Source of the DNA: Prevotella sp.
GTDB lineage: Bacteria > Bacteroidota > Bacteroidia > Bacteroidales > Bacteroidaceae
Reading direction: 5' to 3'
Assembly: GCA_022781445.1 (NCBI GenBank)
Contig: JALETQ010000044.1
Coordinates: 1-44,779 of the forward strand
DNA length: 44,779 bases
Part shown: positions 6,737-37,327 of the stretch, piece after piece
Position numbering within the stretch: the first letter of the stretch is position 1
Layout of the letters: each line of letters starts with the position of its first letter
Position numbers and translations under genes: made by a program
The notes under the pieces: model-generated
Seen by the model: the letters and a program-made list of their open reading frames with translations, nothing else
The model's database searches: none
What the model was told of the DNA's origin: nothing

Positions 6737-7875
6737 CGCATTGGCTCGACATCGTTTTGATTCTCGCACTGATTGTCTTGGCGGCGGCTTACCTGCAACT
6801 GCGGAAGCGTTACCGGCGCAACATCGACAAGATTGGGTTCATGTTCAACGCTCTCGATGTGGGCGACTACACCTTCCGCTTTCCCGAAGAGGGGAAAAAA
6901 AGCGGCGAATCACAGGTCAATTCCTCGCTCAACCGCGTGAAAGCCATCCTGCAACATGCCCGAGACGAACAGATCGAACGCGAAAAATACTTCGAGCTGA
7001 TCCTCGACTCGGTCGATACGGGCATCCTTGTGGTCGACGAGGAAAGGGGCATCGTGCTGCGAAGCAACCGCGCCGCCCTCGACCTGCTGCACCTTGGAGC
7101 CGTAACCCACATCAACCAGACGAAAGAAAAGATGGCGGACTTCTCCACCCGCGAGACCCACACGGTCATCAAAAACCGGCGCGTCCGCATCATCGGCTTC
7201 AGCGACATCAAGGGAGAGCTTGCCAACCAGGAAATCGACAGCTGGGTGAAACTCATCCGCGTGCTCACCCACGAAATCATGAACACGGTGACACCCATCA
7301 TCTCGCTCAGCGACACGCTGCTCAAAAACTCGCAAGGCGAACAGCGGACGGGGCTGCAGGTCATCAGCCAAACGGGTAAAGACCTCGTGAAATTTGTCGA
7401 GAACTACCGCAAATTCACCCATGTGCCCACACCTTCGCCACGCCTGTTTTATGTCAAGCCATTCCTGCAACGCATGACCGAACTGACGAAACCGCTCCTG
7501 AAAGACGGTGTGGACATCAGCATCGACATCGAGCCGCATGACCTGCTGGCCTACTCGGACGAAGGACTCGTGAGCCGCGTGGTGAGCAACATCCTTAAAA
7601 ATGCCGCTGAAGCCGTCGACAGCAACGGACACATCGGCATCCATGCCTACACCGACGCACAGGAAGCGGTCACCATCGACATCAGCAACGACGGCGAACC
7701 GATTCCCGATGATGTGGCTTCGCATATCTTCGTGCCTTTCTTCACCACCAAAAACGGCGGCAGCGGCATCGGCCTGTCCATCTCCCGCCAAATCATGCGT
7801 GCCTGCAACGGCTCACTCGTTCTCCTCTCCGACAAGAAAACCAAGCTCACCACCTTCCGCCTCACGTTCAACTGA
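6733..7875 (+). CDS. Sensor histidine kinase, partner of the sigma-54 regulator
   Basis: 380 residues. One membrane helix (about 4-22), a short linker, a PAS-like segment (about 86-160), then the HisKA-type dimerisation region with phospho-acceptor H180 in LTHEIMNTVTP and a HATPase domain: N box NILKNAAEA (287-294), ISNDGEPIP, F box FVPFFTTK and G box GGSGIGLSIS (342-351). There is only one N-terminal helix and no periplasmic sensor domain, so the signal is sensed in the membrane or cytoplasm. The ATG overlaps the stop of the response regulator (ATGA), so the two are co-translated. The last codons (TTC AAC TGA) form the first unit of the 22-bp repeat array that follows. Confidence 0.93.
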   Translation: MTHWLDIVLILALIVLAAAYLQLRKRYRRNIDKIGFMFNALDVGDYTFRFPEEGKKSGESQVNSSLNRVKAILQHARDEQIEREKYFELILDSVDTGILVVDEERGIVLRSNRAALDLLHLGAVTHINQTKEKMADFSTRETHTVIKNRRVRIIGFSDIKGELANQEIDSWVKLIRVLTHEIMNTVTPIISLSDTLLKNSQGEQRTGLQVISQTGKDLVKFVENYRKFTHVPTPSPRLFYVKPFLQRMTELTKPLLKDGVDISIDIEPHDLLAYSDEGLVSRVVSNILKNAAEAVDSNGHIGIHAYTDAQEAVTIDISNDGEPIPDDVASHIFVPFFTTKNGGSGIGLSISRQIMRACNGSLVLLSDKKTKLTTFRLTFN

Positions 7876-8064
7876 CCTTCATGCCGCCTTCAAATACCTT
7901 TCTTACGGCATTCAACCAATCTGATTTCCATACTCAACCGATCTCTTCTCCATATTCAACCGCCCTCCGTCAAACATCCGACCGAGTTTCTTTCTTCAAT
8001 CCATCCCCCCCCTTTCTCCATCCAACCGCTATCCTCTCTTCATCCCATCGCCCTGTGGAGAGTA
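7867..8064. repeat. 22-bp-period tandem repeat array, nine degenerate units
   Basis: Nine consecutive 22-bp units start at 7867, 7889, 7911, 7933, 7955, 7977, 7999, 8021 and 8043. They share a start like TTCAACCGATCT and a pyrimidine-rich second half ending in CCA or TTCA. Units differ from each other by several bases but spacing never slips. The first unit includes the stop codon of the kinase gene. The array lies between convergent genes (kinase on plus, ferredoxin on minus). There are no unique spacers, so it is not a CRISPR array. The remainder to 8189 shows nothing else. Confidence 0.8.
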
Positions 8065-8184
8065 TCGAAAGAGGCTTCGGTTCATCTTCCTTGAAAACAA
8101 ATGTTTCCACACATCAATCGCTCTTCGGGTTCTCCAAACATGAAAAGGGAAAACACCGAAACAAGAAAAGCCGAACAACGACAA

Positions 8185-8219
8185 AACAAAAGAGCGACAT
8201 CCCGAAGGATATCGCTCTT
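8185..8219 (-). terminator. Intrinsic terminator of the ferredoxin gene
   Basis: Stem AAGAGCGACATCC (8190-8202) pairs with GGATATCGCTCTT (8207-8219) with one wobble and a four-base loop. Read on the minus strand the loop is TTCG and the stem is followed by TTGTTTTG. It lies about 30 bp after the ferredoxin stop. Confidence 0.85.
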
Positions 8220-8247
8220 GTATGTGATTTGATTCAATCAACGCCTA

Positions 8248-8415
8248 TCAGGGAAGGCTGATAGCTTCAGACGGGCAAACGTCTGCGCAAGTACCGCATT
8301 CGGTGCAAACGTCGGGATTGATGGAATACTTTGCGCCCTCAGAGATTGCTTCAACGGGGCATTCGTCGATACATGAACCGCAAGCGATGCAGTCGTCACC
8401 AATTACATAAGCCAT
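8248..8415 (-). CDS. Small 2[4Fe-4S] ferredoxin
   Basis: A 55-residue electron carrier, MAYVIGDDCIACGSCIDECP at the N-terminus. Two cluster motifs are complete: CIACGSCIDECP (residues 9-20) and CTECGTCADVCP (37-48), with the conserved proline after the fourth cysteine of each. This is the length and pattern of clostridial-type bacterial ferredoxins, which serve pyruvate:ferredoxin oxidoreductase, Rnf and similar anaerobic enzymes. It has its own promoter (8472-8507) and terminator (8185-8219), so it is monocistronic. Confidence 0.95.
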   Translation of the reverse strand: MAYVIGDDCIACGSCIDECPVEAISEGAKYSINPDVCTECGTCADVCPSEAISLP

Positions 8416-8471
8416 AGTTTTCTTGATTTTTATTGTTTATAAATGTTCTTGTATACCAACTTTTGGTTGCT

Positions 8472-8507
8472 GCAAAGATACGACATATTTTTAATATACC
8501 TACAAAA
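8472..8507 (-). promoter_or_regulatory. Promoter of the ferredoxin gene
   Basis: On the minus strand, TTTTG (8507-8503), 22 bases, then TATCTTTGC (8480-8472). Good match to the Bacteroidetes consensus; the leader to the ATG at 8415 is about 50 nt. Confidence 0.75.
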
Positions 8508-8541
8508 GGGGATGCTTTTTTTTGAAAAATTGTAGGCTCAC

Positions 8542-8553
8542 AAGCCCCAATCG
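8542..8553. repeat. Solitary end of a 3'-flanking inverted-repeat element
   Basis: AAGCCCCAATCG, the same left-end sequence that opens the elements at 20784 and 33439, occurs here ten bases after the stop of the minus-strand gene 8563-9114. No matching second arm is seen. Confidence 0.4.
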
Positions 8554-8562
8554 TTGCAGTCG

Positions 8563-9114
8563 TCACAAGGTCATACCAATCGAGAAAAAGACGTTATTGA
8601 AATGGGGAATTCCGTCCGTGCGCGAATTCGTGTGCCTGTAACTGATGCCAAGGATGGGCGTAAAACCTTTGCGTATTTTACAAACGACCCCCATTTCGTA
8701 CACCGTGGCTTTCATCTCCGAATCGTAAATATTCGTTCCTATCATGCCTTGCAAGTCCAAGCTCCCGGATAGTTCGGGCAAGGACAACACCTTACACCCT
8801 ACTCCCAATCCGCCGATATTGGATTTGAAATGCGTCCGGTCATCACCTTTCTCATAGATGCCCCGAATAAACTCGGTTCTGATAAAGCCGTACAAACTAT
8901 TGTTGAACTTGTATCCGATGCTGCCCAACCATATATGCTGAAGGGTATTGTGCTGCTTGGTTGTAGCACCTGTCCTCAACTCCGCATAGAAATTATCGAA
9001 GAAGGACTTCTTCTGAGCATCTTGGGCAAACATCATACCGCAAGAGATCGCAAAAACGAACATGACCATCATTCGTTTCACAGACGATTCATAACACTTA
9101 AGACTGCTTTTCAT
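8563..9114 (-). CDS. Exported beta-barrel-like protein of unknown function
   Basis: 183 residues. A hydrophobic segment MMVMFVFAISCGMMFAQ at about 15-31 looks like a signal peptide; an internal start at MMVMF is possible and would give a more standard signal. The mature part alternates polar and hydrophobic residues (YAELRTGATT, IWLGSIGYKF, LYGFIRTEF, VCKIRKGFTPILGISYRH) and ends in FFSIGMTL, as small outer-membrane barrels do. I do not recognise a named family. It has its own promoter at 9192-9223 and is divergent from porT. Confidence 0.75.
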   Translation of the reverse strand: MKSSLKCYESSVKRMMVMFVFAISCGMMFAQDAQKKSFFDNFYAELRTGATTKQHNTLQHIWLGSIGYKFNNSLYGFIRTEFIRGIYEKGDDRTHFKSNIGGLGVGCKVLSLPELSGSLDLQGMIGTNIYDSEMKATVYEMGVVCKIRKGFTPILGISYRHTNSRTDGIPHFNNVFFSIGMTL

Positions 9115-9191
9115 AATGACAAATAATTAAATGGATAAAAAAAGATGGTTGTATTTTACACCCGATTGCCGGACATTTGGCGAATCATGAC

Positions 9192-9223
9192 GCAAATATA
9201 CACAAAAAAGGAAAAACAGACAA
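9192..9223 (-). promoter_or_regulatory. Promoter of the exported barrel-like gene
   Basis: On the minus strand TTG (9223-9221), 20 bases, then TATATTTGC (9200-9192). Close match to the Bacteroidetes promoter; leader about 80 nt. Confidence 0.7.
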
Positions 9224-9395
9224 AACAAAAAGAGGAGGATTATTTTGAAAAACAGAAATTACGGCAGAGGCTTCCATACAATAATGCACCCGAGGGTACG
9301 TTATGTCTTTGAGTGCTTTCCCTTCGTTGACAAAGGTCGGAGGGAACATGACGACAACCGTTGCAGCCTATGCGCTCACCAACACCCAAACACGG

Positions 9396-10148
9396 ATGAA
9401 CAACATGACAAGACATTTTATATCCCTATTGCTGACATTCTGCTTTCTGTCGGCATCGGCCCAAGAACGAAAAGTAGAGAATCGTCCCTATACCGACCTG
9501 CGTCCCTTCCATTTCGGTGTGTTGGTGGGCAGTCATCTGCAAGACATCGAGTTCAGAAACGTCGGTCCGCAGATGATCGAACTCGAGGGAGGCGGCACCA
9601 CCGAGAAGTTGGTGCTAGCCGACCAAGACCGATGGGATGCAGGTTTCACGGTGGGCGTGCTGGGCGAATTCAGGCTGAGCAGGCATTTTCAATTCCGCGT
9701 GGCACCCACCATGTACTTCGGGACACGCCACATCACCTTCCGCAACATGACCGATCTTGACATCAACGGGGTACCGACACTGCAACGGCAGGACATCAAG
9801 ACGGCATACATCGCCTCATCGTTCGACATGATTTTTGCGGCACCACGCTTCAACAACCACCGCCCGTACCTGATGGCGGGGGTCAGTCCGATGATCAACC
9901 TCACGGGCAAGAGCGAAGATTACCTGCGGTTGAAACGCTCGGATGTGTTTCTCGAAGTGGGTTTGGGATGCGACTTCTACCTGCCTTTCTTCAAGCTGCG
10001 TCCCGAATTGAAGTTCATGTATGGCATCACCAACAGCCTCGACACCAACCACTACAAGGAAATCAAAGACCGCAACATGCTGATGTATACCAACTCGGTC
10101 AACTCGGCACACAGCAAGATGATTGCCCTCACTTTCTATTTCGAATAA
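9396..10148 (+). CDS. porT: PorT-family outer-membrane protein (T9SS)
   Basis: About 250 residues with signal peptide (MTRHFISLLLTFCFLSASAQ after a possible MNN). The mature protein is a beta-barrel with PorT-like features: the opening RPYTDLRPFHFGVLVGSH, repeated strands (GVLGEFRLSRHFQFRVAPTMYFG, YLMAGVSPMINL) and the end MIALTFYFE. In Porphyromonas and Flavobacterium PorT/SprT is needed for type IX secretion, which fits the T9SS cargo proteins at 30362-33433, 40775-41245 and 43592-44779. Start 9396 or 9405 are both possible; an earlier in-frame ATG at 9303 would put 31 hydrophilic residues before the signal peptide and is unlikely. Confidence 0.85.
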   Translation: MNNMTRHFISLLLTFCFLSASAQERKVENRPYTDLRPFHFGVLVGSHLQDIEFRNVGPQMIELEGGGTTEKLVLADQDRWDAGFTVGVLGEFRLSRHFQFRVAPTMYFGTRHITFRNMTDLDINGVPTLQRQDIKTAYIASSFDMIFAAPRFNNHRPYLMAGVSPMINLTGKSEDYLRLKRSDVFLEVGLGCDFYLPFFKLRPELKFMYGITNSLDTNHYKEIKDRNMLMYTNSVNSAHSKMIALTFYFE

Positions 10149-10280
10149 TCTTCCCCAAAGAAACCGGCACCCGACAACGCGATTGAGTGCCGGAACGTGA
10201 AAGACATCGCCTCCCCGGCCTGACCCGAACGGACGAAACAAATAATCGAGTGCGGACAGGCAGATTCTCTACGGTGGAGG

Positions 10281-11120
10281 CTATTTTTTCTTAAAGTCGA
10301 GCAACAACCGGCCGATTTTCAATCCCTGCTTGCCGTTTTGGTCCACAAAGACCTGCTTACCATCGATATTTGGGACAACACCGAGCGTCTTCATCATGGT
10401 ATGTGAATGGCCGCCAAGCACCAAGTCGATGTTTCTCGACTGACGGATAAGGATGGTATCGTTGATATCGGGGCTGTCCCAGCCAAGATGCGACAGGCAA
10501 ACCACGATGTCGCAACGCTTCCTGACCTTCAGGAAAGCCGCCACCCGGTTGGCGGTCTCGATGGGATCGAGGAACTTCAGCCCCCGGCTTTTATCGACAT
10601 CAATGAGTCCTTTGGGATCGGGTGACAATCCGAAAACGCCGACTTTCAAACCGTTGCGCCTGATGATGAGCCACGGCTTGACCAAGCCTTTGAGCGGCGT
10701 ATCGGTAAAATCGTAGTTGGAACAGACAACAGGAAAAGTGGCATTCTTGAACAGTCGAGCCATATTCTCGATACCGAAATCGAACTCGTGATTGCCGATG
10801 GTGACGGCATCGTAACGCATACGGTTCATCAACTCGACCTCCACATCGCCCCGGTAGAGTGTGTAATAGGGCGATCCTTGCGAGAAGTCTCCGCTGTCGA
10901 AAAGCAGAAGGTCGGGATGAGTGCGGCGTTCTTCTGCCAAAACGTTGAGACGACGCACAAAGCCGCCTTTGCCGGCGATGTTCTTGTCGGCCAACCGCGG
11001 GTTCAACGGTTCGATACAGCTGTGGGTATCGTTGGTGTGGAGGATGAGCAACTGCTTCCGTTGTGCCTCGGCAGTCACTGCCAGCACACCTATCAGGATG
11101 GTAATCAAGAGTTTTTTCAT
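10281..11120 (-). CDS. Exported metallophosphatase, 5'-nucleotidase N-domain protein
   Basis: 279 residues with signal peptide (MKKLLITILIGVLAVTAEAQ). Complete calcineurin-like metal site: LHTNDTHSC, FDSGDFSQGS, GNHEFDFG, LSHLGWDS and GGHSHT. This is the catalytic half of UshA-type 5'-nucleotidases, which hydrolyse nucleotides in the periplasm, but the protein stops where the C-terminal substrate-binding domain should begin. That domain is a separate gene 13 bp upstream (11134-11916). The two halves probably work together. The convergent gap to porT (10149-10280) holds a possible 7-bp hairpin, CCGGCAC...GTGCCGG, and no 22-bp repeat. Confidence 0.9.
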   Translation of the reverse strand: MKKLLITILIGVLAVTAEAQRKQLLILHTNDTHSCIEPLNPRLADKNIAGKGGFVRRLNVLAEERRTHPDLLLFDSGDFSQGSPYYTLYRGDVEVELMNRMRYDAVTIGNHEFDFGIENMARLFKNATFPVVCSNYDFTDTPLKGLVKPWLIIRRNGLKVGVFGLSPDPKGLIDVDKSRGLKFLDPIETANRVAAFLKVRKRCDIVVCLSHLGWDSPDINDTILIRQSRNIDLVLGGHSHTMMKTLGVVPNIDGKQVFVDQNGKQGLKIGRLLLDFKKK

Positions 11121-11133
11121 GTGAAGGGAATGG

Positions 11134-11916
11134 TTAGGGTTTTACAATCAGAATACGTCCTTCGATGCTTCGGTCAACGACGACGCCCTCGCGGTGCATC
11201 GTCCGGAGATAGTCGGCGATGACATGTCTCACGTTGTTGCCCTCTCCCGGCGGTTCGTTCTTGTCGAACGACTGTTGGAAAGCGACCATGCGGTCATTGC
11301 CTTTGGAAACATAGTCGATGGTGGCAATGCGGTATGTGTCGTCATCGGCGATGGGTAAACCGTTGAGACGCGCATCGACAAGTTTGCCGTCGGCAGTGAT
11401 TTTCAGCATCACACCCCGGCTCACGCCTTCGCCGCCCTGCAGGGCTATCTGACCGAAGAGTTCCTTCACGAGGCTGCCTTTGAGCGAAACGAAGCAAATA
11501 CGGTTGTCAAAGGGTGCCACTTCGAGAACATCGCCCACGGTGACAACACCTTTGGGGAGAGCCGCACGCATGCCTCCGATGTTGTAAACGGCGAAGTCGG
11601 GCTGCTCATCATAGGACTTTCCGGACCACATCAATATATCGGCAAGGAGGTTGGACAACGGACTTTCCGGACGGAAGGCTTCGAGGTCGCGTGCCAAAAC
11701 GCCCACCTGCGGACTCATAGTGCTGTCGATGCGCTGTTTATAGGGTTGCAGAAATGCGGTGATTTCGGCAGAAACAGGTTGGTCGTAGCGTTGGTCCACG
11801 GTGATTTGCGACCTTTCGACATGACTCATCCGGTAGGATGTCGAACACGAAAGAGCAGTGCAGACGATGGCGACGGCACTGACGTATCGAAGTGAATGGA
11901 TTGTGGTTTTCTTCAT
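11134..11916 (-). CDS. Lipoprotein, 5'-nucleotidase C-terminal domain
   Basis: 260 residues. The signal ends in a lipobox, CTALSC, so it is likely lipid-anchored. The remainder is the 5_nucleotid_C fold: SPLSNLLADILMW near residue 85, FAVYNIGGMRAALPKGVVTVGDVLEVAPFDN (the substrate-binding Asn-Gly and Pro-Phe-Asn signatures) and DDTYRIATIDYVSKGNDRM. It lacks the metal-binding half, which is the next gene downstream. The order is reversed relative to the usual single protein: C-domain gene first. The 143-bp space to the upstream LtaS-like gene shows no clear promoter. Confidence 0.9.
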   Translation of the reverse strand: MKKTTIHSLRYVSAVAIVCTALSCSTSYRMSHVERSQITVDQRYDQPVSAEITAFLQPYKQRIDSTMSPQVGVLARDLEAFRPESPLSNLLADILMWSGKSYDEQPDFAVYNIGGMRAALPKGVVTVGDVLEVAPFDNRICFVSLKGSLVKELFGQIALQGGEGVSRGVMLKITADGKLVDARLNGLPIADDDTYRIATIDYVSKGNDRMVAFQQSFDKNEPPGEGNNVRHVIADYLRTMHREGVVVDRSIEGRILIVKP

Positions 11917-12059
11917 AGTTGAATGATTTTTTATCCTTGGTGTATGGTTTTGAGCGTTGAATGGGTTCGGAAGGCGGAGCGATGTGACACCATCGAAGGG
12001 ACTGCCGGCATACCATATTTAATATAATGACACACGATGGCAGAACGGCGGCGGTCATT

Positions 12060-14033: not shown

Positions 14034-14088
14034 TTTCTGATTTGAATACTTGTTGATTGCCTGTTTTCTTCAAACTTCGTTCCTACAT

Positions 14089-15117: not shown

Positions 15118-15146
15118 ATCTGTTGTTTTTCGGTTTCGTCTCTTGA

Positions 15147-15170
15147 TTCCAAACCGGTCATCAGACCGAA
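15147..15170. repeat. Copy of the CCAAACCGGTCATCAGACCG 3'-flanking repeat
   Basis: TCCAAACCGGTCATCAGACC here matches the ends of the elements at 20784 and 29685; CGGTCATCAGACCG can form a small hairpin. It lies between the end of the MsbA-like gene and the GT10 gene. Confidence 0.5.
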
Positions 15171-20755: not shown

Positions 20756-20783
20756 CAAATATCAACTCCCTTCGGACTTCTTC

Positions 20784-20990
20784 TTAGCCCCAATCGGTCA
20801 TCAGACCGTTTTGGTCCTACATTTCATGGCATTCATGATTCTTTCCGGCCGTTTTTGTCCGCTTGCCGGCAGCCTGTATGTTGCCTTGTCCTGACGTAGT
20901 CCGCCACGACTGCAACAAGACAACGAGCCTCCGGCCGACAAGCCAACAAAACCGATTCGGAATCCAATAACCGATTGGGGTTGGGCAGAA
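20784..20990. repeat. 3'-flanking inverted-repeat element enclosing hairpin element copy 2
   Basis: Opens with TTAGCCCCAATCGGTCATCA (20784-20803), which continues into GACCG, and closes with ACCGATTGGGG (20970-20980); CCCCAATCGGT and ACCGATTGGGG are exact inverted repeats about 190 bp apart. Inside it, 20884-20920 is copy 2 of the TGACGTAGTCCG hairpin element, closed by CTTGT...ACAAG. It begins 28 bp after the asparaginase stop. Confidence 0.65.
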
Positions 20991-21090
20991 AAAGTTTTTC
21001 TGCCCAACCGTTCATAAGATACTGCAGCATTTCACTTCATTTTCCTGATGTCTTCTGATTTTTTTTGCACTCATGGTACACAAAATCAAA

Positions 21091-21193
21091 CACCGCATCA
21101 GTAAAAAAAATGGCATGACACAGCGGCATCACATCTTCCGGAGCATGTCACGTTTCATCCGGCATGACCATTTATATATTATGGTATGACCAA
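21091..21193. promoter_or_regulatory. Cluster of GGCATGAC-like direct repeats upstream of rubrerythrin
   Basis: GCATGACA (21113), GCATCACA (21126), GCATGTCA (21143), GCATGACC (21162) and GTATGACC (21184), with a weaker GCATCAGT at 21095. Spacing is irregular (13-22 bp). They could be operator half-sites of an oxidative-stress regulator or remnants of a repeat. The rest of 20991-21276 is AT-rich and shows no gene. Confidence 0.35.
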
Positions 21194-21276
21194 GGAGGAA
21201 GATGACGAAATGAAAAATAAGCCGCTTTATTTGTAAAAATTCCAACTTAAACATGAGGTATTTGGAATTTATTGTT

Positions 21277-21421
21277 TATCTTTGCAGAAGACAGGCTGCG
21301 CCTCGGCAATCTGAAAGAACTTACATTGCACTCGACTTGCGCTGTCTTTGCAGAAGACAGGCTGCGCCTCGGCAATCTGAAAGAACTTTCATTGCACTCG
21401 ACTTGCGCTGTCTTTGCCACA
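21277..21421 (+). repeat. 66-bp tandem duplication carrying promoter -7 motifs
   Basis: Units 21281-21346 and 21347-21412 differ by one base (CTTACATTG versus CTTTCATTG). Each begins TTTGCAGAAGACAGGCTGCG and ends GCACTCGACTTGCGCTGTC; a third TTTGC follows at 21413. The first is preceded by TATC, giving TATCTTTGC (21277-21285), a full -7 box; the later ones read TGTCTTTGC. The region supplies the rubrerythrin gene's promoter, possibly with several start points. Confidence 0.75.
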
Positions 21422-21506
21422 TATTCGATGGCCGGAGAGCGACTTCGGCAACACGAAAAAAAGAAGACCGAACGTGTACAATTCATTATAACTTAACAAA
21501 AACAAT

Positions 21507-22046: not shown

Positions 22047-22113
22047 TCGGGAAAAGGAACAAAGGACTTCCATATCCCGCAATTCAGTACATTCACGACC
22101 GACCTTCCCATCG

Positions 22114-22141
22114 AAAACCGACAGGGGAGGCCGGTTTTTTT
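22114..22141 (+). terminator. Intrinsic terminator of rubrerythrin
   Basis: AACCGAC (22116-22122) can pair with GCCGGTT (22130-22136) across a short purine loop, with one mismatch, and runs into a stretch of seven T. Confidence 0.7.
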
Positions 22142-22160
22142 GAGCATTCACGAACACCCG

Positions 22161-22253
22161 TTAAGCCCAAATCGTTTCGTCTGCCGGCCGGAAAGTGACA
22201 TGAGCGACAGGAAATGTATAAACAAACGCTCTCATGACCGATTTGGTTTAAGG
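22161..22253. repeat. 3'-flanking inverted-repeat element
   Basis: TTAAGCCCAAATCG (22161-22174) at one end and ATGACCGATTTGGTTTAAG (22234-22252) at the other form an imperfect inverted repeat around a ~60-bp centre. The right end matches those of the elements at 29685 and 33439. Confidence 0.6.
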
Positions 22254-22452
22254 CCGGATCATGGCGACATGGGGCATGAACCGCGTAGTCCGAAACTGTC
22301 ATGGAAGGCTCCAAAAGAGGGGTTGGTATGATTCCTAACCGTTACACCTTCCGTTAACGAGAGTGTAATTTTGCTTTCGGGTACGGATGTTCATGACCTA
22401 TTTGGCCCACCTCGAGGGGAACTTCAACAACACTGCCGAAGATCTGCAACAC

Positions 22453-22540
22453 AAAACCTGCCCTTTCACCCGATAAAACCTATCCTTTTGAGCCGCAAAA
22501 GCCGCCCTTTTGTATCAGAATTCGAGCCTTTTCACCAAAG
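22453..22540. repeat. 22-bp-period tandem repeat array, four units
   Basis: Units start at 22453, 22475, 22497 and 22519. The first three begin AAAACC or AAAAGC, then reach CCTTT(T); the core AAAACCTGCCCTTT is the reverse complement of the core in the array at 37240. The fourth unit keeps only GAGCCTTTTCACC. It lies between convergent rubrerythrin (plus) and the metallophosphoesterase gene (minus). An isolated TAATTTTGC at 22366 looks like a promoter -7 box but no gene follows it. The remainder of 22254-22687 shows nothing else. Confidence 0.75.
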
Positions 22541-22687
22541 GAACGGGCAACAGGCGTGTAACCGTCTGGCACGACACCACTTACGCAACAAACAGGAAGT
22601 ATTGACCGTACTGATGGTCAGAAAAGGGAAAAGGGTTGGAAAGAAAAGGCGGAAAAAAGAGAAAAGGAAGGCGGAAGGAACGGAGGA

Positions 22688-28876: not shown

Positions 28877-28918
28877 TGCCGTTTCATTACCCAGAACCTT
28901 TTCATAAAGCCGTCAGAC

Positions 28919-29689: not shown

Positions 29690-29846
29690 ACCCAAACCGG
29701 TCATCAGAAAACTTGTCTTTCCTCTTGCCCGAAGAAGTGCGACATGCTTGTAAATGCCTGGCAGGCCGCTGGCGTTTCGGCAGATCACGGGAGGCTTTTA
29801 CAACACTTTGGTTTCAAAAATCTCTCATGACCGGTTTGGGGCTAAG
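29685..29846. repeat. 3'-flanking inverted-repeat element
   Basis: GCTAAACCCAAACCGGTCAT (29685-29704) and ATGACCGGTTTGGGGCTAAG (29827-29846) are inverted repeats with two differences, enclosing about 120 bp. The left arm contains the TAA stop of the LytTR regulator. It separates the regulator from the lone receiver gene. Confidence 0.75.
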
Positions 29847-29960
29847 GCAGTTCGTTCCCCGTTTTTTCCATTCGAGGAAACGAATTGGCGGGTTCGTTCC
29901 GATTCACTTGCCGTTTCATTGCCTTTCCGTTATTTTTGCTTCAACCCAAAGAGAACGACA

Positions 29961-30350
29961 ATGAAACGGAATATAAGTTATGTTGTGATGGGCAACGAAC
30001 ACTATACCGCACTGGAAATCGGAGAGAGGATACGCATCGCGCGCCCCGGCTATCGCCTGTTGGGCATGACGGAAGACTCGGAACAATCCACGGAGATGCT
30101 CGAAAACAACGACGTCGACCTGATTATCGCCGACATTCATCTGTCGGACGGCAACAGTGTCGATGCCATCCGTAAGTCCGGACGCACGCATACACCCGTC
30201 GTTCTTGCCACCCCCTACCGCAAGGGAAACCCCACGTATGGCGATCTGAATGTATTTGCCTATATGGTGAAACCCATCAGTGACGGCGAACTCATGAAGA
30301 TGATCGTGCAATTTGAGCAAAGCTATTATCAGAATACCAGTATCAAGTAA
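29961..30350 (+). CDS. Stand-alone receiver-domain protein
   Basis: 129 residues, a receiver domain only. Phospho-acceptor D58 is kept (LIIADIHLSDGN), as are T84 and K104 (YMVKPIS), but the N-terminal acidic pocket reads VVMGNEHY where the LytTR regulator has IIENEPF: one acidic residue is lost, so metal binding and phosphorylation may be altered. The helix pattern and the IELVDGN/IHLSDGN resemblance suggest it descends from the neighbouring LytTR regulator by duplication and loss of the DNA-binding half. It ends 11 bp before the adhesin gene and is probably co-transcribed with it. A role as phosphate sink or T9SS-linked regulator is only a guess. Confidence 0.8.
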   Translation: MKRNISYVVMGNEHYTALEIGERIRIARPGYRLLGMTEDSEQSTEMLENNDVDLIIADIHLSDGNSVDAIRKSGRTHTPVVLATPYRKGNPTYGDLNVFAYMVKPISDGELMKMIVQFEQSYYQNTSIK

Positions 30351-30361
30351 CACTTACCGCT

Positions 30362-33300
30362 ATGACAAAAGACGCGAAACTATTATCACTCTGCATGACA
30401 GTGATGTTGTCTGCCCCATTCTCCGGCATGGCACAACCAAAGGGATACCGTCAAGACGCCCCCTTTCCCCCCGTGAACCACATCATACAAGTCCGGCAAA
30501 CACCTCCTGTAAAGAAGGACGGAATGACAAAAGGGAATCAGTCCACCGTGGTGAGACCTGCGTGGACGGCACAACTCAACGACGAGAATGTGTTCCATCT
30601 GTTTACCGTCATCGACAACAACAAGGACGACGCGACATGGATTTTCTTCAAAGACGGCTACGGCTCCGGAAACACCTGCTACAAATACAATGCACAGGAG
30701 GCAGCAGACGACTGGCTGATTTCACCTTATATCGAATTGAAAGCAGGCACGAACTACAACATCAGGTTCCATGCACGCGCCAACAGCTCCTATTACAAAG
30801 AGACACTGAAGGTATGTGTGGGGACAGAACCTACCGTGGCGGGAATGGCGGCAGGACAGGTCATCCTTCCGTCTACCGAGATCGGAGGCGACACCGTATC
30901 CTTCTCCAAAACGTTCACGCCCGTCACCGACGGCAACTACTGCATAGGATTCCACGCCGAGACCGAGGCCGACCACAACCGTCTGTACCTTTACGACCTT
31001 ACCATTGAGGAAGGAGCCGTCAACGCCGCACCCGACGCGCCGACGGCATTGTCGGCTACAGCCGATGAAACGGGCGAACCGAGGGCGACACTCTCCTTCC
31101 TTCTTCCTCTGAAAGCGGTCGACGGAACGACACTCAACACCATTGACAGCGTACTCATCAGCCGGAACGGGGAAAGACTGACCGCACTGACGGGCGTTTT
31201 TCCGGGCAGCCGGCAAACCTACGAAGACAATCATGTGGTCCTTAACGGCAACAACACCTACACCATTGCCGCCTATGCCGGGAAGAACAAAGGCAAGGAA
31301 GCCGCGGCAACGGTCTTCGTCGGCGTGGACACTCCACAGATGCCGCAGGCTCTTGTCATCAAAGACAACAAGACCACCGTCGGAGCGGCATGGAGCAAAG
31401 TCACGGAAGGTGCCAACCACGGAAGAATCAATCCGGAAAGGATTGTGTACAAGGTGTTCGCCTTCGACGAACAGAACCGGCCGACCATCCCCGTGAAGGA
31501 GGTGACGGGCAAAACCGAGACACAGATCGAAGTGAACACCGGCGAAGGCCCGCAACGACTTTTACAGTATGCCGTGGCTGCAAGCAATGCGGGCGGACAG
31601 AGCGACTTCGTCTACTCCAACGCCTTCGTGGCAGGAGCACCCGAGGTGCTTCCGTTCCGCGAAAGTTTCAGCGTGGACGACCAGTCTGCCTTCAACCACT
31701 TTTGGTGGATGGACGGTGAAGGATCGGGCTACGGCTATGGTCTGTCCACCGTCGCCTTCGACCGCTCCTCATACGACGGAGACGGATCGTGCATCAAGTT
31801 CAACTCGGTGGCCTACAATGACAAGTTGAACTTCAAGACAGGGAAAATCAGGCTGGAAAACTCGGACAGACTGAAAGCCGTATTCAGCTATCGGTCCGAC
31901 GAAGCCAGGTTTGCACGCTTCAACCTGATGGCAGTCATGCCGGACGGCAATGCACTCCCGCTGAAGTCGTACTCTTTGGCTGAAGCTACCGAATGGACAC
32001 CGGTGCAGGTGGACCTGCCGTCTTATCTCGGACAACTCGACCATGTGATGCTTCAGTTTCAGCTGGAGGCAACCGGATCACCGGATGTTCCCCAAACCCT
32101 TTATATCGACAATGTAAACATTGCCGTGGCTTCCGGCAAGGATATTGCCATATCACTTGGCCTGCCCGGGAAGGCACAGCGAGGAAAGAAGACATCTCTC
32201 AAACTGAAGGTGAGAAACTACGGAAGTGACGAAGCCAAGGGATACACCGTCACGGTAAAGGCTGCCGATGAGCTGATCCTCAACACAAAGGTAGAAGAAG
32301 TACTGCCTCCGTTCAGCAACAGGGACATCGAAGTGCCGTTCACGCCGAACATCCTCCATGCAGGGGAACAGCTGCAGATTACCGCAGAGATAACTATGGA
32401 CGGAGACGAGAAGGCGGAAAACAACACAGCCTCCGGCTCCGTGAAGCTCTACGATTACAAAGGCGCACCGGTCGCCGGGCTGACCGGCATCCCCACATCC
32501 GAAGGTGTGCGGCTCTCATGGAACGCTCCCGAGGCCGTAAACGAGACCTTCACCGAGACGTTCGAGGACTATCAGCCGTGGATAATCGACCACATTGGCG
32601 AATGGACGGTCGTGGACAACGACAGAGAAGTGGTAGGCTCGCTCTTCAATGACCTCCAACTGCCGCACGAGCATGAGAAATATGCTTTCATGGTAACCAA
32701 CTTTGAACAAGACTATCAGGCAGGAAGCTATTTCCCGGGACACTCCGGCTACACCTTCCTCTCTTCCATCTATTGCATCAACTCCGACGGAACAGAACAC
32801 CGCCCCAACGACAACTGGCTCATCAGCCCCGACCTTTCGGGCAATGCGCAGACCGTCACTTTCCACGCACGCAATCATGACGGCTCGGACATTCTATTTC
32901 CCGAGAACATCCACGTCCTCTATTCCACTACCGACACCCGACTTGAAAGTTTTAAGCCGGCGGGCAGTTATGTCGCCGACAAAGGTGAATGGCAGGAGTT
33001 TTCCGCCCGGCTGCCGGAAGGCGCATTGTTCTTTGCCATCAGAAGCAAGAACGAGGCCGGCAAGAGCAACTGGCTCGCTCTCGACGACATCACATTTGAA
33101 CGCGGAACGGGCAATGTCGCCGGATACAACATTTACCGCGACGGCACTTTCCTTGCCATGATCAAGGACGTGACAGCCTTCACGGACAGAAGTGTCCAGA
33201 ATGGCGAACATCGCTATCAGGTGACCGCAGTTTACGCCAACGGAAACGAGTCGGCACCCGCGACTGTCATCGTCACCGTGACGACGAACATCAACCGGCC

Positions 33301-33433
33301 GATGGCAAATGGCGGACACCCGGCCGACATCTATGACATTTCAGGACGATTGGTGCGCAAGAACGCCACTTCGGCGGAAGGACTGAAACGCGGCATCCAT
33401 ATCGCAGGCAACAAGAAGTTTGTGGTAAAATAA
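30362..33433 (+). CDS. Large T9SS-secreted adhesin-like protein (cleaved-adhesin domains)
   Basis: 1023 residues. Signal peptide at 1-24 (ending SGMAQ). Two cleaved-adhesin-type domains: about 85-215, containing DDWLISPYIELKAGTNYNIRF, and about 735-900, containing NDNWLISPDLSGNAQTVTFH; both are the jelly-roll domains of gingipains and haemagglutinins. Between them lie fibronectin-like modules (about 225-430), a further jelly-roll-like region (435-590, FRESFSVDDQSAFNHFWWMDG) and a CARDB-like domain (600-690). A last fibronectin module leads to a T9SS sorting signal at the C-terminus (IYDISGRLVRK...GLKRGIHIAGNKKFVVK). No protease domain is seen. It probably binds host or biofilm ligands at the cell surface and is transcribed with the lone receiver gene. 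Confidence 0.85.
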   Translation: MTKDAKLLSLCMTVMLSAPFSGMAQPKGYRQDAPFPPVNHIIQVRQTPPVKKDGMTKGNQSTVVRPAWTAQLNDENVFHLFTVIDNNKDDATWIFFKDGYGSGNTCYKYNAQEAADDWLISPYIELKAGTNYNIRFHARANSSYYKETLKVCVGTEPTVAGMAAGQVILPSTEIGGDTVSFSKTFTPVTDGNYCIGFHAETEADHNRLYLYDLTIEEGAVNAAPDAPTALSATADETGEPRATLSFLLPLKAVDGTTLNTIDSVLISRNGERLTALTGVFPGSRQTYEDNHVVLNGNNTYTIAAYAGKNKGKEAAATVFVGVDTPQMPQALVIKDNKTTVGAAWSKVTEGANHGRINPERIVYKVFAFDEQNRPTIPVKEVTGKTETQIEVNTGEGPQRLLQYAVAASNAGGQSDFVYSNAFVAGAPEVLPFRESFSVDDQSAFNHFWWMDGEGSGYGYGLSTVAFDRSSYDGDGSCIKFNSVAYNDKLNFKTGKIRLENSDRLKAVFSYRSDEARFARFNLMAVMPDGNALPLKSYSLAEATEWTPVQVDLPSYLGQLDHVMLQFQLEATGSPDVPQTLYIDNVNIAVASGKDIAISLGLPGKAQRGKKTSLKLKVRNYGSDEAKGYTVTVKAADELILNTKVEEVLPPFSNRDIEVPFTPNILHAGEQLQITAEITMDGDEKAENNTASGSVKLYDYKGAPVAGLTGIPTSEGVRLSWNAPEAVNETFTETFEDYQPWIIDHIGEWTVVDNDREVVGSLFNDLQLPHEHEKYAFMVTNFEQDYQAGSYFPGHSGYTFLSSIYCINSDGTEHRPNDNWLISPDLSGNAQTVTFHARNHDGSDILFPENIHVLYSTTDTRLESFKPAGSYVADKGEWQEFSARLPEGALFFAIRSKNEAGKSNWLALDDITFERGTGNVAGYNIYRDGTFLAMIKDVTAFTDRSVQNGEHRYQVTAVYANGNESAPATVIVTVTTNINRPMANGGHPADIYDISGRLVRKNATSAEGLKRGIHIAGNKKFVVK

Positions 33434-33438
33434 CCGGC

Positions 33439-33559
33439 AAGCCCCAATCGGTCACCAAGGCTCGGACCAATCTGCCCTGCAAGCCGACGAGAGCTGTCGT
33501 GAACTATGGAATATGAAGAAAAAAAGACACTCTGCAGCTTCATGACCGTTTGGGGACTT
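33439..33559. repeat. 3'-flanking inverted-repeat element
   Basis: AAGCCCCAATCGGTCA (33439-33454) and TGACCGTTTGGGGACTT (33543-33559) form an imperfect inverted repeat enclosing about 90 bp. It starts five bases after the stop of the adhesin gene. Nothing is seen between it and the array at 33719. Confidence 0.7.
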
Positions 33560-33718
33560 AACATGACTTAACAGTATATTCCACTGCCTGCGAGCCGTGT
33601 TCCACACGTGTTCCGACCCTCCCGCCGCCCTGCCGGAAGGTGCCAAAAGGGGATTTCGGGAACAATACGGAATGTATTGACAATCAGAATCATACAAAAA
33701 TATCGGAAGATATACGGA

Positions 33719-33850
33719 AAACGATAGTACTTTTTGCATGAAAAGTACTATCGTTTTACTCAAAAAGTACTATCGTTTTGCCGGGAAAATACTATCGTCT
33801 CCCAAAGAAAGTACTGTCGTCTCCCCAAAACACTGTTTCGATAGCCCCGA
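33719..33850. repeat. 22-bp-period tandem repeat array with inverted first unit
   Basis: Direct units start at 33741, 33763, 33785 and 33807; the core is AAAAGTACTATCGTTTT, decaying to GTACTGTCGTCTCCCC, and a fifth degenerate unit may follow at 33829. The unit before them (33719-33740) carries the core inverted, AAACGATAGTACTTTT, so units 0 and 1 can form a 16-bp hairpin. It lies between the convergent adhesin gene (plus) and nhaA (minus). The rest, 33851-33978, shows nothing. Confidence 0.8.
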
Positions 33851-33978
33851 AAACATCAGACAGCACGGTTAAAATGTGTAATGTTTTCACAAAAACGCAG
33901 ATTTTCTTTATCTTCAAGCAGCCGGCAGATTCCGAACCGGAAGCAACGCTGTCAACCGACAATGCAAACATCAGCGGC

Positions 33979-35304
33979 CTAAGACCGGTTCCTGTCCAGC
34001 AACCGATACCCCACAACGGCACCGACAATGGAGGCAACGAAGATGCCCACTTTGGCATGGAGCAGATACCCGGACGGGCCGAATGCGAGGATGGCAATGA
34101 ACATGGACATCGTGAAGCCTATCGAAGAAAGGAATCCGAGGCCGGCAACGGTCCGCCAAGTCATCGAGCGGGAACGCCTGCCAAGCCCGGTTTTCTCGGT
34201 AATCCAGACAGCAAGGAGAATGCCTGAAGGCTTACCGATGAGCAAACCGCACAGCACACCCAACGCCACACGGTTGGAAAAGAGGGCATGGACATCCAAG
34301 TCCACGAAAGATATACCTGCATTCGCCAAGGCAAAGATGGGCATGATGACAAACGAAACGAAAGGATGAAGCCGGTGTTCGAGCTGTTGCAGCGGCGGAA
34401 TGGCGTGCAGCGAATCTCTCTGAACCTTGGAAAGGATGGCCAACTGGTCGGGTTCGAGCGTCCGGACGTCATTGGAAGCCGCGTTTTCAAACAGTCTTGT
34501 CAGCTTTTTGACGCGCGCCACGAAAGCAGCTTCGGGGATACGCGAATCGGCGGGGATGACCATGGCGGCCAAAACCGCCGAAATCGTGGCGTGAATGCCC
34601 GAAGTCAGAAACGAAACCCACACGCCTCCTATGCCGAGAACGCCATAAAACAAGACATTCTTGACACCCAGCCTGTTGCCGAGATACATCAAGGCAAGGA
34701 AACCCGCCCCGAGCGCGAGGTTGATGAAGTTGATCTGTGACGTGTAGAACAAGGCTATGACAACGACACTTCCCAGATCGTCGACAATGGCAAGCGTCGT
34801 CAGAAACACTTTGGCGGAAACGGGCACCTTGTCGCCCAACAGATGAACCACGGCAAGGGCAAATGCAATGTCGGTCGCCATCGGAATGCCCCACCCCACG
34901 GCCATGGGGGTACTCATGTTGAACAGCAAATATATCATGGCAGGAATAAACATACCGAAAACTGCACCGACAACCGGAAGTATGACCTTACGGAAATCGC
35001 GCAGCTCTCCGCCTATAAATTCGCGCTTGAGTTCAAGGCCGACCACGAAAAAGAACATCGACATAAAGCCGTCGTTCACCCAATGTTCGATGCTGAAATT
35101 CAAAAACGGATGACCATTGACCACAAAGCCCAGATGATTTTCAAGGAAATGCGCATATTCTTCGCTCAACGGAGAATTGGCAAGCAGCAGTGCCAGGACG
35201 ACAGATATACCCAACACGATTCCGCCCGACTTCTCCCGATGCAGGAATTGCAAGACTGAAACGGCAAGATGGTTTTCAATTTTCTTCTGAAAGCGTTCTC
35301 TCAT
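33979..35304 (-). CDS. nhaA: Na+/H+ antiporter NhaA
   Basis: Exchanges cytoplasmic sodium for protons, controlling pH and salt stress. 441 residues from MRERFQKKIENHL, with about twelve membrane helices. Family motifs: GGIVLGISVVLALLLANS, VNDGFMSMFFFVVGLELKRE, ATDIAFALAVVHLLG, the ion-binding pair in AIVDDLGSVVVIALFY, and LFSNRVALGVLCGLLIGKPSGI. The longer in-frame upstream stretch (to 35496) lacks family similarity and passes through the promoter region, so 35304 is taken as start. Monocistronic, divergent from the AT-rich gene. Confidence 0.96.
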   Translation of the reverse strand: MRERFQKKIENHLAVSVLQFLHREKSGGIVLGISVVLALLLANSPLSEEYAHFLENHLGFVVNGHPFLNFSIEHWVNDGFMSMFFFVVGLELKREFIGGELRDFRKVILPVVGAVFGMFIPAMIYLLFNMSTPMAVGWGIPMATDIAFALAVVHLLGDKVPVSAKVFLTTLAIVDDLGSVVVIALFYTSQINFINLALGAGFLALMYLGNRLGVKNVLFYGVLGIGGVWVSFLTSGIHATISAVLAAMVIPADSRIPEAAFVARVKKLTRLFENAASNDVRTLEPDQLAILSKVQRDSLHAIPPLQQLEHRLHPFVSFVIMPIFALANAGISFVDLDVHALFSNRVALGVLCGLLIGKPSGILLAVWITEKTGLGRRSRSMTWRTVAGLGFLSSIGFTMSMFIAILAFGPSGYLLHAKVGIFVASIVGAVVGYRLLDRNRS

Positions 35305-35353
35305 GTAATCAAACAAATTGTATATCACTTCCACCAACACGACGGGAGTTACT

Positions 35354-35362
35354 GCAAAGATA
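35354..35362 (-). promoter_or_regulatory. Promoter -7 element of nhaA
   Basis: TATCTTTGC on the minus strand, 50 bp before the nhaA ATG. No TTG is found at the normal distance. The divergent gap 35305-35718 otherwise holds only the -7 box at 35548. Confidence 0.55.
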
Positions 35363-35547
35363 CGAAAAACAGGCGGAATATCCGTCTTGCCAAAGTCAAA
35401 ACTACTCCGGCTTTCCGGCGGCATCAAGTCGCACCGCCGCCATACTGTGGGAAAACTAAAGGAAATGAAAACGAAGGATGCAGAAAACGAATTCACCCTC
35501 CTTGGGAAGAAATCACGAAAGAACGATCACTTTCTCTCGAAAATCGC

Positions 35548-35556
35548 TATCTTTGC
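35548..35556 (+). promoter_or_regulatory. Promoter -7 element of the AT-rich gene
   Basis: TATCTTTGC on the plus strand, 163 bp before the ATG at 35719; no clear -33 element. Confidence 0.5.
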
Positions 35557-35718
35557 AGATGGTGATAGTGAGCCTATGAGACTAAAAATCATTTTCACAA
35601 TATAAACAAAAGATGTGACAAGGTCTTTATTTAGTCAGACCCAAATACCACACACCTACAATTAAGTGACTTGCGTTATGTTACAATCAACGAAACAATA
35701 AAATTGCCAGACAAAGCT

Positions 35719-36771
35719 ATGAGACACATAATTAAAATACTATGCCTTCTGCTATCTCTTTTCACTTCAATAAAAACAACAGTAGCACAGAATACTATCA
35801 AACCTTTATCAGAATGGGATATAACAGCATTTTGCTCTTATAACTCATACCATCCATACAATTATTTGAAAGCTGACAATAATTGGGAAATTCTTTGCGC
35901 TCTTAAAAAGGAACACTTGCTTTCCGAATTACAGTCAATGGGGGTCAACTACAGCCAAAGTCAAATTATGCTCCTTCATATCGGGGGCTTTCTTAAACAT
36001 AAAGAAATGAGATGGGCTACAACTATGCCCATATTCGACAAAAAAGAGACCGACTCCATACGAGACCTTTCCAAGCAAATAGCCGAAAGGCTTTATTACA
36101 AAATGGAAAATGATTATCGCAGTTTCTTAAAAGAACTATCACAAAACGGATACAAGGACAACTCTTTCAGCCTTATGTTTTCTTATCTGCTCGACGGAAA
36201 AGCTTGGAATAAAATCTCCCCGGAGAAACAGGAGTTGGGAAATTATGCCACTTGGACAGGAGTTATTTGGGCAATGTATGCACCACGCCAACATCAGAAA
36301 ATCGGAACAAATGGATTTGGAGCGTTAAGACTCAATTGGACAGACAGCCTCACCCTTTATCCCAGCAACCAAATGATGCTTGACTTTCAAGACGAATTTA
36401 TAAAGAACAAAAAGGTAACAGATGCCAAACTAATAGAGCAACTTTATCGTTTGGGGGCAGTTGATCAAAGTGGAAAAATTACCATTCCGATAATTAATGA
36501 AACCGAAACAAACGAGTTTAATACTATTTGCGACACCATCATAGAAAAACTCGCCTCCGCGGTTGAAGATAACTTAGAACAGTTTATGAAAATAGCCGGT
36601 CTACAAAACAGAGAACTTTCTACCGTCATCTTCTACCACGAGCTAATATGGGATCTTATGGAATTATTGCAAAAAAACAGATTGATAACAATGCCCCGAA
36701 TATTACTATCGTCCCAAGCTCCCCCAAAAGAGATCCGAAATATAATGTTTTTCACCGTGAAACAAGATTAA
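35719..36771 (+). CDS. Exported protein of unknown function, AT-rich
   Basis: 350 residues. Signal peptide MRHIIKILCLLLSLFTSIKT followed by TVAQ. The mature part is mixed helical and soluble-looking (LLSELQSMGVNYSQSQIMLL, AERLYYKMENDYRSFLKEL, LIEQLYRLGAVDQSGKITIP, IIEKLASAVEDNLEQFMKIAG, DLMELLQKNRLITMPRIL). I recognise no named family, but the middle resembles a long helix-turn-helix protein in which a hydrophobic insert is used as a ligand pocket; that is speculative. Base composition is clearly more AT-rich than all neighbours, with A- or T-ending codons, suggesting recent transfer. The internal ATG at 35719 is chosen because it starts the signal peptide; 35671 is also in frame. Confidence 0.75.
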   Translation: MRHIIKILCLLLSLFTSIKTTVAQNTIKPLSEWDITAFCSYNSYHPYNYLKADNNWEILCALKKEHLLSELQSMGVNYSQSQIMLLHIGGFLKHKEMRWATTMPIFDKKETDSIRDLSKQIAERLYYKMENDYRSFLKELSQNGYKDNSFSLMFSYLLDGKAWNKISPEKQELGNYATWTGVIWAMYAPRQHQKIGTNGFGALRLNWTDSLTLYPSNQMMLDFQDEFIKNKKVTDAKLIEQLYRLGAVDQSGKITIPIINETETNEFNTICDTIIEKLASAVEDNLEQFMKIAGLQNRELSTVIFYHELIWDLMELLQKNRLITMPRILLSSQAPPKEIRNIMFFTVKQD

Positions 36772-36857
36772 GCCCCAAAAGGAGTTAAAGACAATTTATT
36801 CCACACCTTTTAATCCAGAAACTTATGTATTTACCATTCTCTCTGTTCCTCTTTATA

Positions 36858-37128
36858 GACTGAAAGATCCCTTACAGGAAAAAAAACGACAGCCAGTAAC
36901 TACGAACCAAACCTTATTGAAAGAGTGGTGGATATTGCCGAAGGGATTACATTGAGTGCAGGCGGTGGGTTGGACTTCCAAGTCAACGGAGAGACTTATG
37001 CTGATACCGCTTTTCAGCGAAGACCGTACCACGAAGGCAATAAGAGAAGGTCTCGACAACAAAAGCCTAAAACCCTCTTGCGCTTCATCGGACGAACCGT
37101 GCATCCTTACGACTTGCAAGACAAATGA
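36858..37128 (+). pseudogene. Possible gene remnant
   Basis: An open stretch on plus reads TGKKTTASNYEPNLIERV, then VDIAEGITLSAGGGLDFQVN and GETYADTAF, which looks like real protein, but it has no ATG near its beginning. After about 37010 the protein-like sequence seems to continue in another frame (FSEDRTTKAIREGLDNKSLKP). This fits a frameshifted relic of an unknown gene. The remainder of the gap 36772-37239 has nothing else I can support. Confidence 0.3.
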
Positions 37129-37239
37129 TGGTTTCACACGGACGGCATGGGCAATGACAAGGAAATACGGAACAAAACCACGAAAGATATCCGGCCGACC
37201 GAAAGCCAAAACAAGCCCGAACCGGAACACTCCTTTCGC

Positions 37240-37327
37240 AAAAGGGCAACTTTCACTGTCCGGAAGGGCAGGTTTTATTCGGGAAAAGGGCAGGTTTCAC
37301 GAAACGAAAGGGCAGGTTTTGCATCAC
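37240..37327. repeat. 22-bp-period tandem repeat array, four units
   Basis: Units start at 37240, 37262, 37284 and 37306; the GGG of each AAAGGGCAGGTTT core falls at 37244, 37266, 37288 and 37310, exactly 22 bp apart. The core is the reverse complement of the core at 22453. It lies between the convergent AT-rich gene (plus) and the anti-sigma gene (minus). Confidence 0.8.

Follow-up and report, generated by a model that had tools for sequence, protein, structure and literature searches.

The locus treated here is a 44,779-nucleotide contig of a Prevotella sp. genome (JALETQ010000044.1, assembly GCA_022781445.1; this whole stretch is called the window below), in which several gaps between genes hold short arrays of 22-bp units, and the question it raises is what holds units of differing sequence to one spacing. 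We propose, as a reading that in our estimation falls a little short of probable, that the arrays are clusters of protein-binding sites, that is, docking platforms for a putative dimeric DNA-binding protein, and that the arrays would have been spread by miniature inverted-repeat transposable elements (MITEs) and kept by selection. The window's own genome, G000, comprises 2,389,987 bases (2.39 Mb) in 65 contigs; other G numbers denote comparison genomes, C numbers contigs of G000 and L numbers stretches of DNA.

Arrays of 22-bp units in the window

The sequence-only reading of the window had reported four exact arrays, each between convergent genes, and all four are present at the following positions:

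7867–8064, strand not assigned: array A, nine degenerate 22-bp units approximating TTCAACCGATCTCTTCTCCATA
22453–22540, plus strand: array B, four AAA-CCTGCCC-TTT units (the main family), the last degenerate
33719–33850, plus strand: array C, about six units of the AAAAGTACTATCGTTTT type, the last degenerate
37240–37327, minus strand: array D, four main-family units, reading GGGCAGG on the plus strand

The period is exact and the units are degenerate: identity at lag 22 is 0.551, 0.545, 0.645 and 0.621 in A to D, respectively, against dinucleotide-shuffle means of 0.25–0.29, and the observed values were reached by none of 2000 shuffles at lag 22 and by none of 500 when the best of lags 10–44 was taken. 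In array D, lag 44 stands above lag 22 (0.68 vs 0.62). Tandem Repeats Finder at a low threshold detects only A and C of the four, and Rfam at its gathering score matches nothing in the window other than a tRNA-Gln, hence none of the arrays. Arrays B and D form a single AAA-CCTGCCC-TTT family on opposite strands, as had been claimed of two loci, and lie within the convergent gaps 22047–22687 and 36772–37554, respectively. The best match of D elsewhere in G000, on contig C4, extends over just 93 bp. The A-tract skeleton said to be kept at all loci holds for the main family; it is missing from array A, a repeat of another kind, which is pyrimidine-rich, lacks an A/T frame and overlaps the final 9 bp of a gene ending at 7875. 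In array C the first unit (33718–33734) is opposite in orientation to the rest, and close matches to this array occur in three related genomes (G003, G017 and G026).

Our gene calls, which come from a home-made hexamer model on which all gap classes given here rest, agree with the five convergent gene pairs counted earlier and with the lack of an array in the fifth gap (10149–10280), which its shortness would lead one to expect, since gaps below 400 bp hold just one of the 47 arrays in the genome sample described below. The four arrays are not the full set, a further pair having been overlooked in the divergent gap 4708–5401:

4988–5027, strand not assigned: two 22-bp units, TTCCCAACACGTTGAAAA and TTCCCAACACGTTGGGAA, of the TTCCCAACnnGTTGGGAA family

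This pair belongs to a different family from A–D and is flanked by inverted arms at 4965–4978 and 5037–5050 (found by eye, with one mismatch).

Pitch, frame and number of units

The genome sample comprised 830,479 of the 2,389,987 bases of G000, in contigs picked among those known to hold matches, a choice that biases densities upward and affects comparisons of lags and gap classes less. With an array called at 28 or more matches out of 44 at lag 22, in gaps of at least 60 bp, an array of 22-bp period is present in 47 of the 373 intergenic gaps. This bears out the excess of lag 22 that the sequence-only reading had proposed to look for: within the range 8 to 99, lags divisible by neither 22 nor 24 turn up in zero to two gaps each, and the other lags exceeding two gaps are 24 (8 gaps), 44 (26), 48 (5), 66 (6), 72 (4) and 96 (4). 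A smaller class of 24-bp repeats therefore coexists with the 22-bp class in G000; its TCCATACTATAGCAATAGTGTCAG arrays, with up to about 11 units, lie at C4:21940–22227, C55:148307–148450 and C55:140462–140557. The 22-bp class itself comprises several families, including AAA-N7-TTT (the main family), CAACnnGTTG, TGACGTCA, TGTACA pairs and others. The main-family pair pattern AAACCTGCCCTTT-N9-AAACCTGCCCTTT, with at most three mismatches, occurs 100 times in G000 and its reversed pattern not once.

Within the main family the spacing is rigid. All 31 relaxed-core neighbours within 100 bp of each other lie at 22 bp (22 cases) or 44 bp (9 cases), and all 28 exact cores are in gaps between genes. Chaining with a weight matrix gave 48 arrays, spanning two units in 4, three in 11, four in 32 and five in 1; their units face either way in one register, the commonest orientations being four (8 arrays) or three (8 arrays) units all pointing forward. 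Two near-identical arrays at C12:105164–105229 and C12:109997–110062, 5 kb apart and with matching flanks, are probably a recent local duplication.

When 30 of the 32 four-unit arrays were aligned (two being dropped as too near a contig edge), information averaged 0.90 bits per position inside the arrays, where the height of the A/T-frame columns is partly built in, the matrix having been seeded with AAA...GCCCTTT, against 0.08 in the far left flank. The common sequence ends within about 8 bp on either side, and this emptiness of the flanks is not due to the seeding. The spacers keep their edges (T-G-C and C-A), and two of the three have centres near background.

The usual number of four is seen again in G076 and G017, which are sister species. 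Runs in the first 240 kb of G076 number 24, of which 23 consist of exactly four units and the other of three; convergent gaps hold 10 of them, tandem gaps 13 and a divergent gap 1. In this genome lag 22 is found in 35 of 103 gaps and no lag that is not a multiple of 22 in more than one. A skeleton of four units matches far more often than one of five in G076 (245 vs 1), G017 (227 vs 4), G140 (63 vs 1), G063 (19 vs 0) and G053 (13 vs 0), and the four-unit skeleton was present in all 21 genomes counted, most of which had been picked for high counts.

Words that differ between species

The seven bases between the tracts, here called words, behave differently from the frame around them. At seven loci orthologous between G076 and G017, the A and T tracts show 0 changes in 168 positions, a count that is unbiased on the G017 side only, the G076 copies having been picked for intact tracts, while the words show 53 in 196, the spacers 25 in 189, the remainder of the element 194 in 979 and the DNA outside it 456 in 3904. 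Eight orthologous pairs had been taken, one of which was dropped for want of an exact array in G076; a further pair (G076 position 106305) was excluded, its copies possibly being separate insertions. Where words have been replaced, the new ones belong to the repertoire of the species concerned: half-sites of AAACCG number 22 in G017 and are outside the top six of G076, and AAAGAG half-sites number 31 in G076 and are not among the six commonest of G017.

The positions within the four-unit clusters are also distinguished. In 34 elements from 400 kb of G076, a set chosen by a CAA...GG word, the fourth slot holds CAATAGG; in nearly all G076 and G017 copies the first slot is opposite to the second and third. 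The second and third slots share the same word in 0 of 34 G076 elements (9.1 expected) and 2 of 17 G017 elements (4.9 expected), and these unlike words look as if two different sites were wanted.

Across the genus the words form what may be called dialects. The commonest half-site triplet is GGG in G000, GGT in G010 and GCG in G076, and the half-site words are GGG with CCT in G000, GGG with GCA in G012, GGG with CGT in G053, GGT in G010, and GCG and CCT in both G076 and G017; in this table G012 is represented by about four loci and many other species by one or two. The G000 pair pattern (at most three mismatches) occurs in only 3 of 60 genus genomes drawn, G000 included. Of 149 genus genomes, 23 show the two-unit skeleton no fewer than 70 times and at a ratio of four or more to its reversed control; the high-count genomes G000, G006, G010, G017, G076 and G124 fall outside these 23 because the control is itself matched by their arrays. 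In G127, G129, G046, G008 and G138, matches to the reversed skeleton, TTT-N7-AAA, are more numerous than those to the forward one, a sign perhaps of another array family in the other phase. In 11–20-kb pieces of six other genus genomes, taken without choosing, lag 22 was found in 2 of 45 gaps, both without the A/T frame. Order-wide, a four-unit match occurs in 6 of 247 genomes, with 14 matches in G000, 2 similar-looking ones in a genome of the same family, and one A/T-rich match each in the remaining four, of which those in G396 and G407 resemble these genomes' own tandem repeats. An exact array pair found no match in a database of genome contigs from which G000 and its near relatives were possibly excluded. 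As for the host lineage, the nhaA gene beside array C is closest to those of Prevotella sp. UBA1395 (78%) and P. illustrans (74%) among the best 80 of 509 matches.

A proposed docking platform for a dimeric protein

We favour the binding-site reading because the usual number, the fixed pitch, the unchanging frame and the changing words would together fit a dimer bound in register and do not fit free slippage. On this proposal each unit would be made of two half-sites, AAANNN and NNNTTT, around one central base, a layout with an A or T tract at intervals of 11 bp, in which four units would be a site for four dimers. The dimers might assemble side by side along one face of the DNA, the words providing base-specific contacts that would change with the taste of the protein. 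Small mobile elements, whose transposase would be supplied from elsewhere, may have spread the arrays, and selection could have kept the frame after the carriers decayed; candidate roles for the resulting complex are chromosome architecture and the insulation of neighbouring transcription. A more ambitious version, which we consider doubtful, is a genus-wide docking code of four-dimer sites with fixed frame and pitch, whose heptamer words would turn over jointly throughout a genome with a fast-evolving reader, every Prevotella species thus having its own dialect of one platform; several such readers would act in parallel, each with one array family.

A number of observations weigh against the proposal of a binding platform. 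No binding protein was found, Lrp/AsnC being the one octamer-forming family tested. The genus searches were seeded with the skeleton, which left only flanks, spacers, words, spacing and number free to vary, and the selection of the G076 copies weakens the zero tract changes, while being no explanation for the G017 side. Other 22-bp families in G000 have neither the A/T frame nor curvature. Conservation extends in part to the first spacer of the G000 arrays, whose commonest central base stands at 0.50–0.67, and an eight-unit main-family array at C6:64863–65029 (L321) has several identical spacers, as if from recent slippage. Five-unit matches are many in G124 (224 four-unit vs 117 five-unit), G095 (170 vs 79), G006 (145 vs 72) and G126 (144 vs 56). 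The reversed control exceeds the skeleton in G127 (135 vs 23), G129 (98 vs 45), G046 (76 vs 23) and G003 (67 vs 24), the last of which carries C-type arrays. Finally, in G053 lag 9 is about as frequent as lag 22 (18 vs 19 gaps), and other minisatellites are present there.

The Lrp/AsnC family was rejected as the reader: it has one to three copies in all 26 genomes tallied, array-rich and array-poor alike, and its presumed recognition helix is nearly invariant between species. Several of the gap minisatellites of G053 (L141–L150) are of the CTCGTTTGCTCGTCGCTTGTCC type, unlike the A/T-framed arrays.

Arrays as possible cargo of mobile elements

The main rival holds that the arrays are neutral minisatellites carried by MITEs, their length changed by slippage and the convergent gaps being simply where they do least harm. 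We take this to be rather unlikely. In its favour, the four units of G076 sit inside a block of some 212 bp that is conserved and also present in G017, and three G017 insertions (353, 461 and 462 bp) enclosing this block are missing at the matching place in G076 (at the 461-bp insertion, G076 has its own copy about 0.3 kb away). Two of the three have clear duplicated flanks, AACAAT and TTATTTCT, each of them single in G076 (the second in diverged form), which is the target duplication of a MITE, seen for the G017 copies only. The ends of the G017 carriers begin with ACGTGAGTTCGG, resembling those of MITE239 of Porphyromonas gingivalis; insertions with such ends, some of them composite, lie at L262:7705–7913, L261:10024–10232 and L263:6125–6332. 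In G000, some copies of the CAACnnGTTG family share a flank, with inverted arms at one of them, and array C is partly included in a larger dispersed element:

33476–33810, plus strand: dispersed element, longer than array C and covering part of it

This element has a 78% copy on C45, and its portion 33476–33673 recurs without an array on C51; no terminal inverted repeat was seen in it by eye. From the G017 insertions, the CAACnnGTTG flanks and the array C element it follows that such arrays have been carried about by mobile elements. The palindromic repeat described below, with its like bias towards convergent gaps, also sits well with an origin as neutral cargo.

What speaks against neutrality is the behaviour of the units themselves. 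Their number peaks at four in G000 and many relatives where slippage would give a spread, the pitch is kept where the flanks are randomised, and words change at orthologous loci where tracts do not. The carriers are themselves patchy: the end motif was found within about 330 bp of just 5 of 19 G017 copies examined and near none of the G076 copies, and the terminal motif TGAGTTCGG is absent within 500 bp of the 47 G000 arrays. The 30 aligned main-family arrays, having no common flank beyond about 8 bp, have no visible carrier; this family has outlived its carriers, if it ever had any.

Position between genes and DNA curvature

A second alternative, closer to what the sequence-only reading had suggested, is that the arrays are bound at gene 3' ends by gyrase or a general nucleoid protein, in the manner of repetitive extragenic palindromic sequences and bacterial interspersed mosaic elements (REP/BIME), with phased tracts easing the wrapping of DNA and the relief of positive supercoils. 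The tracts recurring every 11 bp, the curvature predicted for the main family and the position of the arrays all lend it some weight; we nonetheless judge it improbable.

As to position, the 47 arrays are distributed over 16 convergent, 7 divergent and 24 tandem gaps, so the claimed link to convergent genes stands as an enrichment and fails as a confinement. When the count is limited to gaps of at least 300 bp, the share with an array in G000 is 16 of 38 for the convergent class, 7 of 37 for the divergent and 24 of 100 for the tandem, and in G076 it is 14 of 20, 3 of 21 and 18 of 46, respectively. In a logistic regression, gap length (z 6.65) outweighs the convergent class (z 2.08). The same bias is shown by a separate, self-complementary palindromic repeat of 200 bp (AACCCAAATCGGTCAT...ATGACCGATTTGGGTT), of which the window has a copy at 20787–20982 and the 830-kb sample 116 copies or pieces, 54 of them of at least 170 bp: it is found in 24 of 38 convergent, 10 of 37 divergent and 42 of 100 tandem gaps of at least 300 bp. 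The convergent bias therefore needs no function specific to the arrays, and the earlier idea that they answer colliding supercoils loses its footing. The arrays are not part of the palindromic repeat, a possibility ruled out by independent occurrence: among 139 gaps of at least 400 bp, 46 hold arrays, 69 the repeat and 23 both, against 22.8 expected. In tandem gaps both lean to the 3' end of the upstream gene (18 of 24 arrays and 42 of 59 palindromic repeats in G000; 17 of 19 arrays in G076), so that both avoid gene 5' ends; the main-family chains of G000 share the lean weakly (13 of 20, p = 0.26), and array orientation in the G076 tandem gaps, read from the list without a statistical test, is mixed. 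The window also has, at 21279–21417 within the gap 20756–21506, a 66-bp unit repeated 2.1 times at 98%.

As to curvature, the predicted bend over 88 bp, from a model whose angles were entered by hand, is 63.5 degrees for the G000 main family against 27.4 in its flanks, with 16 of 30 arrays more than 1.64 standard deviations over their own shuffles compared with 16 of 200 random gap pieces; in G076 it is 91.5 against 31.5 degrees (35 of 35 arrays). The idea of helically phased A-tracts is thus upheld for the main family and fails for the other palindromic families (12 tested, mean bend 35.4 degrees), so curvature was rejected as a general explanation of 22-bp arrays. Wrapping, moreover, would hardly require species-specific words. 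The proposed likeness to REP/BIME also finds no enzyme to rest on, since the REP-type transposase domain PF01797 is absent from G000 and present in 5 of 14 control genomes.

Hairpins and uptake signals as possible roles

That the arrays might be bidirectional terminators or RNA hairpins, formed by an inverted first unit and its complements, we hold to be very improbable. The first slot is indeed inverted relative to the second and third in G076 and G017, array C is arranged alike, and in G017 the mismatches summed over slots show a tendency to pairing (p 0.07). Exact slot complements, however, number 16 against 15.7 in shuffled sets in G076 (p 0.54) and 11 against 9.1 in G017 (p 0.22), so the terminator role suggested by the sequence-only reading receives no backing from a hairpin, and the commonest G000 arrays, being one-directional, could form none of this kind. 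Least probable of all, and argued from analogy, is that the words are Neisseriaceae-like uptake-signal dialects for natural transformation, for although they are species-specific, abundant and partly at gene ends, they come in clusters of four rather than as single sites, with every exact core in a gap.

Comparison with known systems

Neisseriaceae reportedly have dialects of their DNA uptake sequence, abundant species-specific variants of one motif, and in this the arrays would be alike; uptake sequences are usually single sites and the arrays differ in being clustered in fours. REP/BIME elements, which bind gyrase, IHF or Pol I, are short intergenic repeats in either orientation with a 3'-end bias and a species-specific sequence, features that the arrays share as these elements are generally described; the rigid 22-bp pitch and the clusters of four set the arrays apart.

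Among the titles listed in searches of open-licence literature, none concerns 22-bp arrays in Prevotella. The nearest described system is BrickBuilt of Porphyromonas gingivalis, a minisatellite inside a MITE (PMC4596501), which has 19 copies in strain ATCC 33277 and one family of 23-nt units in numbers from 1 to 22.8. The same source mentions 22-nt repeats of P. gingivalis without giving their location; these, which the sequence-only reading had brought up, would be possible relatives of our arrays. BrickBuilt resembles our arrays in its intergenic, tandem units of 22–23 bp, in a MITE with IS5-type ends and in sites filled in one strain or sister species and empty in another. It differs in that our arrays have a period of 22, mostly four units (32 of 48), several families per genome and species-specific words in an A/T frame, and in that its leader and tail with terminal inverted repeats have no counterpart in the G000 main family and a partial one in G017 and G076. 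The ACGTGAGTTCGG ends of the G017 carriers come close to the ACGTGAGTTCGA of MITE239, whose ends are listed with those of ISPg3 (PMC4596501, Table 2); elements of the MITE239 type seem, according to that source, not to encompass mini- or microsatellites, and the G017 carriers differ from them in enclosing 22-bp arrays.

If a protein does read the arrays, it would be a fast-evolving bacterial DNA reader tracked by hundreds of sites, in a genus widespread in the microbiomes of humans and animals, and would offer a way into how Bacteroidales chromosomes are organised; should the arrays be neutral, they still illustrate the seeding of regularly spaced site clusters genome-wide by mobile elements. 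What is new relative to BrickBuilt is the unit number, the several families, the dialects and the missing carrier of the G000 main family. In the usual tandem repeats the number varies and the sequence is kept; in these arrays many species retain the number, the pitch and the frame, and it is the words that change, more quickly than the DNA around them at the seven loci compared.

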